Below, piece by piece: positions 12,777 to 21,313 of a DNA stretch of 64,000 nucleotides. A program made the position numbers and the translations under genes. Source of the DNA: Holtermannia corniformis (lineage: Eukaryota > Basidiomycota > Tremellomycetes > Holtermanniales). Location of the stretch: positions 100,271-164,270 of the forward strand of contig BCIJ01000004.1 in assembly GCA_001599935.1 (NCBI GenBank). Reading direction: 5' to 3'. Position 1 is the stretch's first letter; every line of letters begins with the position of its first letter. The notes under the pieces were generated by a model, which worked only from the letters and a program-made list of their open reading frames with translations, was not told the DNA's origin and made no database searches.

Positions 12777-15248
12777 ATGAGGCTCGGAATCGCAGTAACG
12801 GCTCTCACAGCCCTCTCAACAGCATCGGCACTCAGTCTCCCTGCTTTCCTCCGCGCTAGCCCACAAGACGCAATCTCCACCGCTCAATCCTGGGTCGAGG
12901 GCTTCATTAGCTCTCCTCTCCCGGCCGATGTCGGTGGCGTGAGCGTCAGTCAGGTTGAGCAGGACGGCATCACCTGTGTGTAACTCTGTCTCCTGTTGGA
13001 TTGCAGAGAGCTAAAGGGTGGTAGACCAGCACCTCTCTCACCCCTTGTTCCCGTCGCACGCGCTCCGCCTCGCATCGCCAAAGATCTGCGATAATGATGT
13101 CAAGCAGTACTCGGGCTATCTTGACATTGCAGAGGGCCAGCGACACCTCTTCTTCTGGTTCATGGAGTCGAGGGACAGCCCGAAAGATGACCCGGTCGTG
13201 CTCTGGTGAGTGCCCGTTGATCGAACGTGGACGCCGTACTGACGGCCTGCTAGGTTGAACGGTATGTATATCATAGTGGCAAAGTAGCTGCATGCACTGA
13301 CGAGGACTCATAGGCGGACCCGGCTGCTCGTCAACCACCGGTCTCCTCTTCGGTCCGTTCCATCTCCATCCCCCAATCCCCCGATGCACCAACTAACCTA
13401 TTCACCGCAGAACTCGGCGCCTGCTCAATCGCAGACAACGGTCAAAACGTGACCGCAAACCCTCACTCTTGGAACTCGGTCGCCAACATGCTCTTCCTCG
13501 ATCGTGCGCTACCTCTCTGTCTCGATCGGACAACGCTGACAAGAACTGCGTGATAGAACCTATCGGCGTCGGGTTCTCGTACGCTGACTCTGGAGCGGTC
13601 GACAACACCCCTGCGGCGGCCGAGGACGTTTACGCCTTCTTGGCCTTATTCTTCGGTAACGTGCGTGTTGGGTTGGCTCGGTGTAGTGTGCTTGGCGTGT
13701 GGCACTGCGCGCGCATCACATCTGCGTGTGGACGTTATCGCGCTGAACTCGTGTGGCTCGGGTTATGGCCGATTGAGATCGCGGCCTATAGCGCAAGACG
13801 GTCGTCGTAGCTCGCTTTCCGGGCTCACGTGTGTCACTTCACGTACACGAGCTGACAGCATCCTCAGTTTGACAAGTACGCGAACAACGCATTCCACATC
13901 TCGGGCGAGTCGTACGCCGGCACGTACCTCCCGAACATTGCCAGCGTGAGTCCGAGCACTGGTCGCCGCGCATTTAGATGTTCTTATGCGTCACAGACGA
14001 TCTACAAGCACAACCTCGCTCTCGAGGCGACGCCGAACGTAAAGGTTCCCAAGCTGAACCTCAAGTCGGTTCTGATTGGGTTCGTCCAGCAATATCTACA
14101 TGGTCGAGACGGGCCGCAGCTGACAGAGTTACGTAGCAACGGCTTGACCGATCCCAAGGTTCAGTTCCCGTCCGTCAAGGAATACGCCTGCGACTCGTCA
14201 TATGCCGTCTACGATGACCCGTCTGGACCTGAATGTGTTGCGCTCGAGAGCCATGGTGCGCGGTGTGCACAGCTCATCGACGGCTGCTACAAGTCCGTCT
14301 TCGCCGTCTTGCTTCGCTCATGCTGATGCCTGCGCAGGTCCGGTTCGCGCTTTGCCTGCGTCCCCGCGGCGCTGTACTGCTGGAGCCAAATCTACAATGG
14401 TCTGCAGCAGCTCGGCTTGAATATGTACGATGTTCGCAGGGTGCGTTATCGGCGTGTGTGGGAGGTCGGGGAGGCACTGACTTGGCCAGAAATGCGACAA
14501 GAGCGAGGACGCCGATGGGCCGGTGCGTCGCTTGTCGTGAACGATGGCATTTGTACTCATCGACATAGCTGTGCTACCGCGAGATGGGCTGGATGGAGAC
14601 TTACCTCAACAAGCCCGAGATCAAGAAGGGTCAGTCGTTTGTTCGCGTCTGGCTCCAGGTCTGACCCCTCGCAGAGCTCGGCGTGCCCAACCAGATTGAA
14701 TTCAAGTCGTGCAACATGCAGATCAACCAGGCGTTCTTGTTCAAGGGCGATGGCATGCACAATGCCGCCGCTTTGTTGCCTGAACTGGTGGATGCGGGCA
14801 TCAAGCTGCTCATCTACGCCGGCGAAGCCGATCTCAGTAAGTCGCGCGGTTCGAGATGCACGGCTCAGCTGACACCTTTCGCAGTGTGCAACTGGTACGC
14901 GATGTCCTCGCAGCTCACGTTCAACCACTGACAACGCAGGATCGGCAACCTCGAATGGTTGAGCGCGCTTAAGACGCGCTACCTGACCGAATTCACCGCC
15001 GCCAAGGTGACCAACTTCACCTCGTCTGAAGGCCACGTCACTGGCTTTGCCAAGAGTGCGGGCAAGGGCTCTGGGAACGTTGCGTTTGTCTCGTTCCATG
15101 AAGCCGGTCACATGGTGCGTCTGTCCAGCCGCCGGACGCGAGCGCGCACTGATCGTGGTTTGATAAGGTTCCGCACGATCAGCCGGTTGCGAGCTTGGAC
15201 ATGTTCTCGAGGTGGCTTAAGGACGAGCCGCTTGCGCATGGCAATTGA
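12777..15248 (+). CDS. PRC1: carboxypeptidase Y-like vacuolar serine carboxypeptidase (S10)
   Basis: This is a serine carboxypeptidase that trims C-terminal residues, in fungi typically in the vacuole. A signal peptide ([20 protein letters not shown]) is followed by a short propeptide; the mature enzyme begins around [15 protein letters not shown] and KQYSGYLDI. The oxyanion region reads LNGGPGCSS, the catalytic Ser is in [10 protein letters not shown], the Asp in AGEADLMCNW and the His in HEAGHMVPHDQP. The C-terminus [13 protein letters not shown] matches the family length. Introns are many: one ends at 13027 before HLSHPLF, and an 8-nt exon (13254-13261) supplies part of WLNGG between two introns. 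The propeptide is short compared with yeast CPY. Upstream it is divergent to the DPBB gene. Confidence 0.93.
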
Positions 15249-15446: not shown

Positions 15447-18400
15447 ATGTCAAGTTCTCGCCCACGACGCGCAGCTGCGTCTTCCCAGGCAGAGTCAAGT
15501 CGTGGCACACCGACGCGCACAACGCGCGCCTCGTCCTCACAGGAACCAGTCCTTCGCTTTCGTCGCAGTGCTGCCGCCTCTGCCGCCGACGCAGCAGCCG
15601 CAGCCGATGAAGTCGCACGCACCACACGACGATCAAGTAGCAAAAAGGTCTCGTATGCCGACGTGACGGCTCTGTCGGATCCTAGTGACGAGATTGTCGT
15701 GGAAGAACCCGACGCGATGGTCGAGGATGAAGTCAAGGAGGAAGTGATTGAGCTTGGCGAGGAGGAAGTTGACGAGGGAGAGGATGCCGAGGGGGATGAG
15801 AATGCGATGGAAGTCGATGGCGAGGCCGAGGCCGACGTGGAACGACCGGTCAATCGGCCAAAGGGCCGTCCGAAGGGTAGAAAGAGTAAAGGCAGGGGCG
15901 GGCGCAGGGTTGCTGCTATCAAGGAACCTGAACGCGAGGGGACGGAAGCCGAGGACGAGGACGGTGATGATGTGAGTGCTGGGTTTGTGTGTTAGACGAT
16001 GCTGACACATCGTTAGGTTGCTGACGGTATTTATGCCTTGTGATGCGGTGACGTCCGGCTGACCACGATAGAATCGGCCGTTGGCACGCGCAAGACCAAG
16101 AATGCAGTCTACCAGTTAGAAGAGGGTGGCGAGGAGGTAGCCCTGCCAGACGACGAAAAGGGAGATCAGAAGGTCGATGCCCTTGGCAATTTGCTAGGAG
16201 GTGCGTTTGCTCTTGGCGCGTGAGGTAACAGACTGACGCCAAACACAGGCCGTCAATACAAGTGCTATACCTTCAACTGTCCCGAACGTCACGACCCCGA
16301 CAAACTTTACGTCTTGTCAATCGACGCTGCACGCGCATGCGGCTTCGAGGCTTCGCTCGTCATGTTCCGCAAATACCCCGCGTTGATCAAGATCACGATG
16401 AAGCAGGCCGAGAAGGAGCGCTTGATCGACCTCGGCAAGATTAGTACCAATCTCAAGCACCGGTCGGTGAACATGGTACCTATGCGCAATGTGTACCGAC
16501 TGCTTGGAGCACGGCTGGTCAAGGGTCCGTCCACATCAGCGTGGCAGTGCTGTTCTAACGGCGCAGACGGCAAATGGGTGACGGATGACTACTACGAGGA
16601 TGAGGCCCTCAAGCAGTGCGAGGCGGCTGGCATCGAGCCTTACACCTTCGTCGGCGACCTGACACCCGAAACCCAAGATTCTAACCAACAGAACCAAGCT
16701 GCACTTCGTGGCCTGCAGTCGTTCTACACCCTCGGCGGGCCATCAACCCACTTTGGCGGCGCCGGTCTCGATCCCTGGACCGACGCAGTCGGAGGCAATC
16801 GTCGCGCCAAGCTCGTCTCCTCGGGTGTCACATACGAAGACTGGATGTATCGCTATGCCTCCGAGGCTCGGGCACGGGAACGCGAGCTGAGGCGAGAGAA
16901 GGAGGCGCGGTTGCGAAGGTTTGAGCCCAAGGAGAATGGGGGCGCTGTCTGGATGTATGCGCTCGAGCACGAGACTGAATTGGCGGCAAAGCTCGACAAG
17001 GCGGAGACACCGTTTGAAAGCCGCGCGGGCTCGGCAGCTGCCGAAGTGCGACCTGTGAAGAAGCGTAAACTGTGGAGCTCGTACGAGCCGGGCGTCGTTC
17101 GTGGTGTCTACGAGGTATGTCCACGACTTGCGTTACTGCACTGCTGACGTCAATGGCAGCCTCACACGCATACGCCACACGTGCCCCAGTTCACACAGCC
17201 GACCTGTGCGCGCTTCGAGCGCCTCTCGCGTCAACCGCTGTTCGATCGCCCACTTGGAGTCGACAAGGTCCGCTCAACGATGATCGGCACGATTGTCGGC
17301 CGAGGCGCATATGGCATCGCTAGCGTCGAGTACGCTCTCGAAGATGCGGCTGAGGCTGAGGCGACTGTCGCTGAGCGCCTCGCCGAGGTCCAGGCAGCCG
17401 AGCAGTGGGAGAGAACCCTGAGAGAGGAGCGAGTGATTGCGTTGCAAGCTCGTGCGGCACTGCGGAGAGGAACTGCATCACAGCGCGCTTCGGCCGCGCC
17501 GACACCTACCTTTACGGGCGACAGCGCCGTCGGTACCCCGACTGCCGCCCCGTCACCTGCAGGTCCCACCGCTGCAGAGCCCAAGATATCTCTGCTTGCT
17601 CATATCCAAGCCGCCCTAGACACTCTTTCCAATCCCGAAACACTACACGTCACAGCTTTTGTCTCTCATTTCAAACGCACAAACGCCCTGTTCCCGCATA
17701 CACTAAACCCTCCGAAATGTTGGCAACAGGAATACCTCGTCACAATCAGCTCAGACCTCAAAGCGAACGATCGAACAGACGCGACACCTCGCGTCATGGT
17801 TTCCGCCATTTCCGCATATCTCTACTACCTGCCCCAAACATCATCGAGCGTGCTGTACATCTCCAAGATCGATTCATCAGGCTATGCTCCGTCGCCCATT
17901 CCCGTCACACGCACCCTCGCCAGGTCCTTCATTGGCTACTTTGTCAATGCCAACACGCGCTTGACCCCAAACGTCTGGGTGCAGCTGTTTGCGCGAGCAC
18001 AGCGACAGTACCTCTTCGCGAATTCGAGCGATAGTGGGACGAAGAAATACTTGCCAGGTCTAGGCTTGTGCTCGTGGTGGAAGAGAGTACTTGAGGACGT
18101 TGTTCTGAACGAGGTGGCGGAGCCAGCGGTACAAGGAACGCCGTACCTGACGTACCTGCTACCATCATATGGTGCCGACGAAGCTGCCGGTATGGTCGGC
18201 CTACCCAAGCGTCCGCTTCCGGAGGGTGTGAATTGGAGGTACATCCCTCCAGGACATGCCTCGCTGCCCTCACCATATATCGATTCGACCACTTCGGCCA
18301 CGCCTCAGTCCATCGCTGTTCTGGTCCCTTCCCTGCCAGACGATCCAAAGACTCGATTCCTCGACGAGCTCGTCGCCGAGCTGCCGGCCAGCGCACCTAC

Positions 18401-18896
18401 ATCCCGTGATCGCTCATCATCAAGCATCGATCTCGCCAGGAAGTCCGACGACACGTCATATCGCGCATTGGCTTCAGCGGGACTCTCCAACACACCGGCC
18501 GACGAATTCTGGGAACGCATGGGTTTCCGCCAAGAGTGCTCGAGCGGAGACGTGACTGGCTTCTTCACCCTTGGTTTCGTGTCCGACTACCCCGGCACAC
18601 TGCAAACTGTCAAGCCGCCGGCCAGTCAGCCGATGCAATTGGCTCCGGTGATTCTTGAGCGCCTGAGCGCCGCTCTGCTGAACTTTGACTTTGGCACGCG
18701 CGAGCTCGCGCTTTCGTCGTCTACGGCATTCGAGGAGAATGTGGAGCGGATTGTAGGAGGCGAGGTGGGTGCGGCGCTGTGGCCGGAGGCGTACACCGTC
18801 AAGGTCCCTGCTAAGGAGGGCTTGCCGGTGTCGCAAGCGGCGCCAGAAACACAGCAGCCTGTCACGATGCTACAGGCGCGAAAGAAGAAGAAGTAA
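15447..18896 (+). CDS. fusion: Rsc7/Swp82-like remodeller subunit + Rtt109-like histone acetyltransferase
   Basis: The N-terminal 170 residues are basic then strongly acidic with an AT-hook-like patch (RPKGRPKGRKSKGRGGRR). A CRC_subunit (Rsc7/Swp82) region follows: QYKCYTFNCPERHD, MVPMRNVYRLLGARLVK, DGKWVTDDYYEDE and VRGVYEPHTHTPHVP. The last exon (17160-18896, 578 codons) holds the end of this region, an Ala/Pro/Thr-rich linker (about 17470-17580) and a complete Rtt109-like KAT11 domain of about 438 residues. That domain shows RQYLFANSSDSG, the WW pair in CSWWKRVLED, and LPDDPKTRFLDELVAE, where yeast Rtt109 has its Asp-Asp and autoacetylated Lys. The end MLQARKKKK mirrors the yeast MLKPRKK tail. 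No stop or plausible ATG separates the halves. Rtt109 acetylates H3 K56/K9/K27; Rsc7 belongs to RSC/SWI-SNF. An in-frame upstream ATG lies at 15333. Confidence 0.8.
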
Positions 18897-19036
18897 AGAT
18901 GCAAACTTATATGGTCATGGGCGGTGTTGGAAGGCTAGACATGACATAGCATAATCAATATCGCATTAGGCCAGACTATCCATTACTAAGCGCGTCGTCA
19001 CAGGCATATCCATCGTCCGTCGCGTGGGCTTTGCGA

Positions 19037-20714
19037 TCACGGGCGAACACTGAGCTTGCGCTTGCACGATCCGCCCGAGCAGCCGCCAGACCAGCCGCTC
19101 GACTGCTCGTGACCGCACGACGAGCCGTGGCAGCCGACGACCACGACCTCGGTCGGCTGAGCAAGTGCGCCCCATTGCTGGTGGCATGCTTGGGTGCAGC
19201 CAGCCAGGTCACCGTAGTTACCTTGGCCCTGACCGGCGACTTGCTCGACAACGGTTTGGGTCTAGCCGTAGCGTCAGCTGGCAGTCTTACTGGGTGGACT
19301 TCGGCTTACCGCAACGGCCGTTTCTGTCACAGTCTGCGCTTGGGTGACTGTAGCGAGCTGCGTCACCTGCGCGGTCTCGGTAACAATCTGCTGTTGAGTC
19401 TCGACCTGCAGAATGTCAGGCTCCCCTACGAACGCCGTAATGCCCGTACCTGGGTTTGCAAGACGGTGGTAGGAAGTGTCTCAACGGCCGTTTGGACGAC
19501 GGTCACGGCTTCGGTTCTGAAGACTTAGCTTCGTATACATGTGCAGGGTCAGAACGCACTGGGTTACCAGTTGCTGCTCCGTCTGAACCTGTGTCACTTG
19601 GACGGTAACAGGTTGCGCCTATATCTTGTCAGATCTAGTGATTGAACCCAAACTTCAACGCACCACCGTCTCGGTCATGACCTGAGTTTGGACCACTTGC
19701 TGCACCTCGGTCTTGACGACCTCCTGGGTCTGTATCTGGGTCGCAGTACTGGTAGACATATGAGCGCTGCACAGCGGATGCGGCGGGGACTCACACGTTG
19801 TTCTGGATTGTGCTGATATTTTGTGAGTGATGCGCGTAATGGCAGACTCGTAACGCACCTCACGGCGGTCTCGACGACCGTTGTCGGGACGACTGAAGTA
19901 CTGAACCGGCGTCAATTTCGACGTGTCACCGAAACACAAACTAACGCGACTTGGGTCTCAACTTGAGTCGCAGTAGCGGTACTGCACGTTGTTGTAAGCG
20001 TAATGATCCCAAGCCGCACCGACGACGCACACTGTGGCTGTCTCAACCTTGGTCTCGATGACGGTCTGGTAGTCTATAAATGGATCAGCTTTCTGCGGAT
20101 CGGGGACCACTGTGCCCCTCACAGATAGCGGTGACGGTCTGCGGCGCGCAGTGCTCGATGAGCGTCTCGGTAAAGACCTCTGCAAACGATCAGCAGTGCT
20201 TGGACTGCGTGCCAGCTCCACGTACCCTTGATGATCTTGGTTTCGTAGCATCCGACTTCTGTGAACCAACCGAGCTGCACACAGTGACCCGAGCCATCGC
20301 GCTGGTAGCCGTAGCCACACTGCATCGAGGCGTATGCCCACTGCTGAAAGTCGGCATAGTGGGCTTGTTGGCTGGGCGTGGAACATCAGGGATGATAGAG
20401 TAAGAGCTCAAGAGTACGCACAGAGCGGGTTCTTGCAAGACGATACCACAGCCCCAAGCGCCACACTCTTCACCTGCGCCAAGGACGTAGCCGTTTGCCT
20501 CGGCGACCTCGCGAGGGGTCGGTGGGTTGGTGGGGACAGGAGCCGGAGGGAACGTCGAGACTTGCATTCCCTCGGTTACGGCAGGCAGAGCGGCGCCTGA
20601 ACCGGACGCAGGTCCAGCAGCAGGCTGGTTCCATCCCAAAACCTGGGTGGCGGAGGCCACTGAAAGGCGAAGGAGCAGGGCGACAAGCGCCGTCTTGGTG
20701 GCGATAGCGGGCAT
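19037..20714 (-). CDS. secreted Thr/Val/Gln repeat protein with Cys-rich ends
   Basis: I do not recognise this family. From 20714 a signal peptide (MPAIATKTALVALLLRLSVA) precedes a Pro/Ala-rich stretch. A Cys-containing domain follows (GYVLGAGEECGAWGCGIVLQ, then SMQCGYGYQRDGSGHCVQL and EVGCYETKIIK). The middle is built from short exons coding QTV/VET/VTQ-rich strands: YQTVIETKVETA, ATATQVETQVA, TSVVPTTVVETA, VVQTQVMTETVV, QPVTVQVTQVQTEQQLVTQ and ATVTQAQTVTETAVA, separated by introns of about 40-60 nt. The last exon is Gly/Ser/Cys/His-rich, ends RKLSVRP at 19037 and has no GPI-type tail. A cell-wall or surface role is plausible from composition. The exon order is well supported by conserved donors and acceptors, but individual edges are provisional. 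Confidence 0.68.
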
Positions 20715-21313
20715 TACGATCTGATTATGGATTACGTCGTAGAGTCCAGCGGGCTATGGGATGTATTGGAGCGGGATGAGGTTGCGAAGAGTAGCTCCCA
20801 GAGCCGAGCGGTCCACGCTGCGAGGTAAAGAAAGTTGAAGCTGGACAGCTCAGCTGCGACTTGTCTTCGCACCGCCAGCCGACTCACAGGTACAAAACAG
20901 TCAAGCTAGCTGACTGACCACGTCAAGTGGAGAAGAAGCGACGAATACGTTGTAGGGGGGAGAGAAAAGGACGCAAACGCGGAAAAAGGCGATCGAGCAC
21001 TGTCGGCGGTTTGTACACGGCGCCCGCCAGGTGTGCGAGTGTGCGTTCGACATGCTTAGCGTGCTGTTTCAGGGGGATGTCAGGGTCGAGTTTGTCTGGC
21101 TGGGATCGAGCACTGCCATCTGTTCAGACAAGGTTTCAGCAAGGTGATGAAACGCGAGCAGCGTTTCAGTGCGGCTGGGCAAGCTGCTTATTAGCGCTGT
21201 CAGCGTGAGACGGATGAGGATGGTAATAATAGATGCGTGCGATGTGTTGGTGATGTGTTGCAGGATGTCCATCACGACTGATCAGCAACGCACAGACACA
21301 GGGATTAGATGCA
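20715..21313. other. intergenic stretch
   Basis: This 600-bp stretch holds the upstream region of the secreted repeat protein and the 3' flank of the complex I gene. I see no coding frame with a recognisable domain and no RNA gene. Confidence 0.4.

Follow-up and report, generated by a model that had tools for sequence, protein, structure and literature searches.

In Holtermannia corniformis, the chromatin remodeler subunit Rsc7 and the histone acetyltransferase Rtt109 are encoded in one continuous reading frame. The gene is located on contig BCIJ01000004.1 in a stretch of 64,000 nt, hereafter the window, to which all positions refer. The fusion is really encoded in the DNA, and it combines two known families in a way that is new to the proteins and papers searched. 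At the level of sequence, two full-length proteins share one open frame, in which the invariant residues of the acetyltransferase are retained. The explanation that we regard as probable is that one gene gives one 1074-aa Rsc7-linker-Rtt109 polypeptide (117.5 kDa), which brings an H3 (K56) acetyltransferase into RSC; its expression as a single chain and its action in RSC are what we infer from the arrangement of the coding sequence.

Gene model of the RSC7-RTT109 locus

The coding sequence is interrupted by five GT-AG introns of 42-48 nt, each of which carries CTGAC or CTAAC before the acceptor (Table 1). The nearest in-frame stop codon 5′ of ATG 15447 lies 39 codons before it. This start, the extent of the last exon (17160-18896) and its stop-free passage into Rtt109 had been claimed in the original prediction and were borne out, as the frame is open from 17160 to 18893. 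The exon reading itself had to be corrected, because a stop-free intron of 42 nt (16525-16566) had been missed. The 14 residues that the naive model translated from this intron, GPSTSAWQCCSNGA, are absent from all seven aligned relatives. Removal of the intron closes this insert and leaves the alignment gap-free there; the resulting KDGKWVTDDYYED is identical in P0115 and has close variants in the other six, and the product is shortened from the 1088 aa of the first model. That this intron was read as coding by eye is a warning for other gene models in the H. corniformis genome.

The locus is flanked by a serine carboxypeptidase-like gene upstream (13856-14928, + strand), which matched Peptidase_S10 in two pieces (E = 4.8e-7 and 1.3e-4) and is probably split by introns. 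Downstream (18976-20753, - strand), there are ORFs with VTQ/TETxV-like repeats, for which the two pieces tried had no Pfam match; as a guess, they perhaps encode a cell-wall protein.

Table 1. Positions in the window of the fused gene and its parts.
Feature	Position	Strand	Remarks
Coding sequence of the fused gene	join(15447..15971, 16017..16026, 16072..16200, 16249..16524, 16567..17114, 17160..18896)	+	
Exon 1, N-terminal basic/acidic low-complexity part of the Rsc7 half	15447..15971	+	MSSSRPRRAAA...; compare MSRTRPRRAAA of P0112
Exon 2, 10-nt micro-exon	16017..16026	+	flanked by two 45-nt GT-AG introns with CTGAC
Exon 3, CRC_subunit domain begins	16072..16200	+	
Exon 4, CRC_subunit core	16249..16524	+	
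Stop-free in-frame 42-nt intron	16525..16566	+	GTCCGT...CTAAC...GCAG
Exon 5, remainder of the Rsc7 core	16567..17114	+	from alignment with relatives
Last exon, Rsc7 C-terminal tail	17160..17471	+	PHTHTPHVP, GIASVEYALED, AEQWER; from alignment with relatives
Only in-frame ATG in 17160-17795	17280..17282	+	possible internal start of a shorter product
37-aa linker	17472..17582	+	no in-frame stop, no ATG in any frame, no CTNAY
Complete Rtt109 (HAT_KAT11) without its own start Met	17583..18893	+	D of ISKIDSSGY, WW, DD and K of PDDPK, VTMLQARKKKK tail
TAA stop codon of the fused frame	18894..18896	+	

Two whole proteins and the junction between them

The original prediction had proposed an HMM search for CRC_subunit and KAT11 as a check, and both domains scored over their Pfam cut-offs in the search, which was run on the first, 1088-aa model: CRC_subunit (PF08624) with E = 1e-39 and 136.5 bits against a cut-off of 25, and HAT_KAT11 (PF08214) with E = 2.2e-33 and 116.4 bits against 22.5. 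An alignment with tremellomycete Rsc7 covers the Rsc7 half from its S/R-rich N-terminal start over PHTxxPHVP to the ..GLASVEY...AEEWE tail, and the solved Rsc7 chains 23cp and 6k15 match this half over the CRC domain. Although YEPHTHTPHVP had been taken as the end of Rsc7, five of the seven aligned relatives can be aligned further to A..WE (AEQWE from 17397 here) and end 8-34 aa beyond it, which moves the linker downstream to the place given in Table 1. In the more distant P0116 (Mrakia) and P0118 (Leucosporidium), the A..WE motif is missing and the ends differ. The gene models of P0117, P0120 and P0122 read YEV... just before PHT; on our own reading of these sequences, the three seem to share with the fused gene an intron just before PHT, into which their models run. 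The H. corniformis protein shares with Rsc7 (Npl6) of RSC the CRC domain, PHTxxPHVP and the SVEY...AEEWE C-terminal tail, but reads on past this tail and bears an acetyltransferase.

The Rtt109 half can be aligned from SLLAHIQ to the terminal VTMLQARKKKK, so that only its own start Met is missing. In 12 of 12 aligned relatives, the leader before the SLxxHI column measures 2-31 aa, Met included. The WW and PDDPK motifs and the RKK tail were present as predicted, the tail reading RKKKK. All 73 aligned acetyltransferase sequences have the same WW, DD and K, and the D in SKxDSSGY (last-exon residue 238) is invariant. In the alignment with PDB sequences, each of these residues of the fused protein pairs with its identical counterpart in yeast Rtt109; the yeast positions we take to be D89, W221/W222, D287/D288 and K290. 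A structure model of the last exon, built from a 78-row alignment of which five rows are Rsc7, has a mean pLDDT of 82.9 and a confident acetyltransferase fold. Its first ~56 residues are of low confidence, and residues 57-107 form a long predicted helix at the end of the Rsc7 tail. The fold search returned 25 PDB matches at E<=0.001, with Rtt109 at ranks 1-18 and p300/CBP as the other seven. The fungal H3K56 acetyltransferase Rtt109/KAT11 (PF08214; PDB 5zb9, 5zba, 3q33, 6o22) is matched in fold, active-site residues and the VTMLQxRKKKK C-terminal tail; unlike it, the half described here lacks its own start Met and is tethered to Rsc7 at its N terminus. The C-terminal tail is conserved by sequence, and its yeast counterpart makes contact with Asf1 and completes a ring with Vps75 that encloses H3-H4 (PMC6684614).

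The claim that a full-length Rtt109 domain is joined in frame to Rsc7 held, since both halves are whole and neither a stop codon nor a branch site lies between them. Between the final motif of Rsc7 and the first of Rtt109 lie 59 codons, none of which is a stop codon. In frame 0, the linker codons score 2.5, a coding-like value but lower than the mean for the rest of the gene (6.6, SD 3.0); frames 1 and 2, at -9.6 and -3.8, are not coding-like. At this composition, an open run of 579 codons has a chance of ~1e-8; a stretch of 55 codons, such as the junction, would be open by chance in ~18% of cases, so that the case rests jointly on the missing stop, the missing start and the little room between the genes. 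No ATG is found in any frame in 17400-17600. Two separate genes with a tail and a leader of usual length would, by our own estimate, have only ~125 nt to accommodate terminator, promoter and leader. These results agree with the original view of a linker without ATG and without room for a promoter. The internal ATG that it placed at 17281 is located at 17280, within the Rsc7 tail.

We searched the junction for introns. A standard intron in the linker was rejected, as CT[AG]A[CT] does not occur in 17160-17800, and the looser CTNAY is found in 17160-17700 only at 17161, 17599 and 17665, with none from 17400 up to 17598. Under looser rules, 17160-17900 contains four weak GT-AG candidates, whose acceptors all lie within the Rtt109 part. 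One of the four keeps the frame, the other three use the donor GTCGGT at 17529 and would end Rsc7 early, and none gives Rtt109 a start. This donor is of the GTNNGT type, like the GTCCGT of the fused gene itself. The scan missed donors such as GTATTT, which are covered by the branch-site search.

Two products might arise from the one locus, either as an Rsc7 messenger and a shorter one whose 5′ end lies within the Rsc7 coding sequence and which is translated from ATG 17280 into Rtt109 with a leader of 101 aa, or by splicing from 17529 that ends Rsc7 early. The ATG is in frame and has A at -3, and the 17529 donor, for which there are three candidate acceptors, would take Rsc7 out of frame and onto a stop codon. 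We nevertheless consider this unlikely: the ATG lies in the conserved Rsc7 tail, away from the usual start of Rtt109, and a promoter would have to sit in Rsc7 sequence; the last exon contains no separate stop codon for Rsc7, and none of the weak introns has CTRAY as a branch site.

The 37-aa linker consists largely of Ala, Pro, Thr and Ser (10 A, 7 P, 7 T, 4 S) and is mostly of low pLDDT in the last-exon model, and it is probably flexible. Such an Ala/Pro/Thr-rich, poorly modeled segment would also suit a fusion protein that is made and then cut in the linker into separate mature products, which we consider quite improbable.

Copy number and proposed action in RSC

The copy search, which was done exon by exon with the best candidates scored, matched KAT11 and CRC once each in the 20.2-Mb, 55-contig assembly, and 0 of 14 prokaryote control genomes matched either domain. 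Within this search, a second Rsc7 or Rtt109 was rejected, so that no source of either protein other than the fused gene is visible. With one CRC match in the genome, the half may be Rsc7 of RSC or Swp82 of SWI/SNF; in C. neoformans, Rsc7 is specific to RSC (PMC6856107). Among the partner genes, the assembly has Asf1, a NAP-family gene (the family of Vps75) and two SNF5-family loci, as expected for Snf5 and Sfh1. Histone H3 with KSTELL (K56) was found in three of the fetched H3 loci.

In the single-polypeptide model, the Rsc7 half would dock into RSC as it does in Cryptococcus, and Rtt109 would become an RSC-borne enzyme on the 37-aa tether. In C. neoformans, the RSC-specific Sfh1 pulls down Rsc7, not the SWI/SNF-specific Snf5 or Brf1 (PMC6856107), which helps the suggestion that the fusion ties H3 acetylation to RSC. 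The C-terminal tail of Rtt109 is left free by the fusion, and Asf1 may present H3-H4 there. The fusion would then acetylate H3 at K56, and perhaps K9, on histones that are evicted by RSC or exchanged at RSC sites. In vitro, H3K56ac raised DNA breathing 7-fold and RSC speed only 1.2-fold and did not improve RSC binding (PMC2856916). Combined with the acetyl mimic K56Q, a deletion of rsc1 is lethal but one of rsc2 is not; the authors ascribe this to unwrapping and not to acetyl binding (PMC7308085). H3K56ac is reported to enhance promoter nucleosome turnover (PMC6763489). We therefore think action on evicted or exchanged histones more likely than acetylation of intact nucleosomes, and acetylation at RSC sites would favor nucleosome unwrapping and turnover.

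As the copy search revealed no further Rtt109, replication-coupled H3K56ac would likewise have to come from the fused protein. A stronger version, in which the obligate single-copy fusion is the sole H3K56 acetyltransferase and a built-in RSC subunit, coupling remodeling and acetylation one-to-one, is put forward tentatively and given somewhat less than an even chance; if true, a remodeler would have to carry out replication-coupled acetylation or be present during it. The small in vitro effect of H3K56ac on RSC counts against the single-polypeptide model, and the benefit of the tether is not obvious, because the known substrate of Rtt109 is Asf1-bound H3-H4 (PMC6684614).

Whether H3K56ac and SWI/SNF-family remodeling form one pathway is disputed: ChIP ties K56ac to SWI/SNF recruitment, whereas acetylated nucleosomes had merely small effects on RSC and SWI/SNF in vitro (both in PMC2856916). 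A natural fusion would be an independent evolutionary hint that H3K56 acetylation and remodeling act together, and it offers a ready-made test protein for this link. Rtt109 is known with soluble histones bound to Asf1, and the fusion would moreover demonstrate that this enzyme can be attached to a chromatin machine.

Distribution and origin of the fusion

A search for the same architecture in related genomes had been suggested in the original prediction; 0 of 231 fetched proteins matched both the Rsc7 and the Rtt109 halves, the fetched Rtt109 set being the listed 120 of 662 Rtt109 relatives. Likewise, PF08624 was found in none of 110 KAT11 proteins of at least 598 aa (7992 candidates scored). 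The absence of fused relatives rests mainly on these 110 proteins, because the Rsc7 protein search yielded 13 matches from 7996 scored candidates, which low-complexity words perhaps crowded. In viral contigs, one stretch matched the pattern for relatives of the fusion and none was confirmed. The literature searched, mostly open papers, contained no description of an Rsc7-Rtt109 fusion, in line with the original prediction, to whose author none was known, and the papers naming both Rtt109 and Rsc7 were, in their available parts, not about a fusion. With one genome known and none of the 231 proteins matching, there is no sign that the fusion has been kept up by selection.

In a tree of the fused protein and 44 chosen of its 218 relatives, it fell within a group of 32 rows that has a support of 100/99 and in which the members with names are Tremellomycetes; its own branch is long and has no placed sister. 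In two of the relatives, Kwoniella sp. DSM 27419 (P0111/P0132) and Cryptococcus sp. DSM 104549 (P0112/P0127), Rsc7 and Rtt109 are encoded on separate contigs of 1.5-4.8 Mb, and the two genes are accordingly not neighbors there. They are also on separate contigs in Tremellales sp. Uapishka_1, which carries little weight as one of these is just 7 kb. The separation in the two former species suggests that a rearrangement probably preceded the fusion: RTT109 would likely have been placed behind RSC7, with subsequent loss of the stop codon of RSC7, the sequence between the genes and the start codon of RTT109.

KAT11 was joined to another Pfam domain in 11 of the 110 KAT11 proteins (7 PF20152, 2 PF13506, 1 PF00106 and 1 PF14622). 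Such joins in databases, together with the occurrence of the fusion in one genome only and the chance with which a 55-codon stretch stays open, speak for an assembly or sequencing error, or a strain-private mutation, that erased a stop and a start between two ordinary neighbors. This account is nonetheless highly improbable in our estimate, as stop and ATG would have to be lost by two errors together and the ~125 nt would have to hold terminator, promoter and leader; the database joins may stem from gene calling, whereas here the DNA itself is open. What those joins in Agaricomycetes (PF20152) and in Stemphylium and Talaromyces (PF13506) share with the H. corniformis fusion is KAT11 and a second domain in one entry; the partner here, CRC_subunit, occurs in none of them, and they may be gene-model merges.

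The combination of KAT11 and PF20152 was seen in seven Agaricomycete proteins (P0008, P0009, P0011, P0012, P0016, P0017 and P0022) and represents either a conserved neighbor merged by gene callers or another real fusion. KAT11 with PF13506, a glycosyltransferase domain named ceramide glucosyltransferase, occurs in P0065 and P0109 from Stemphylium and Talaromyces, which are perhaps merged neighbors.
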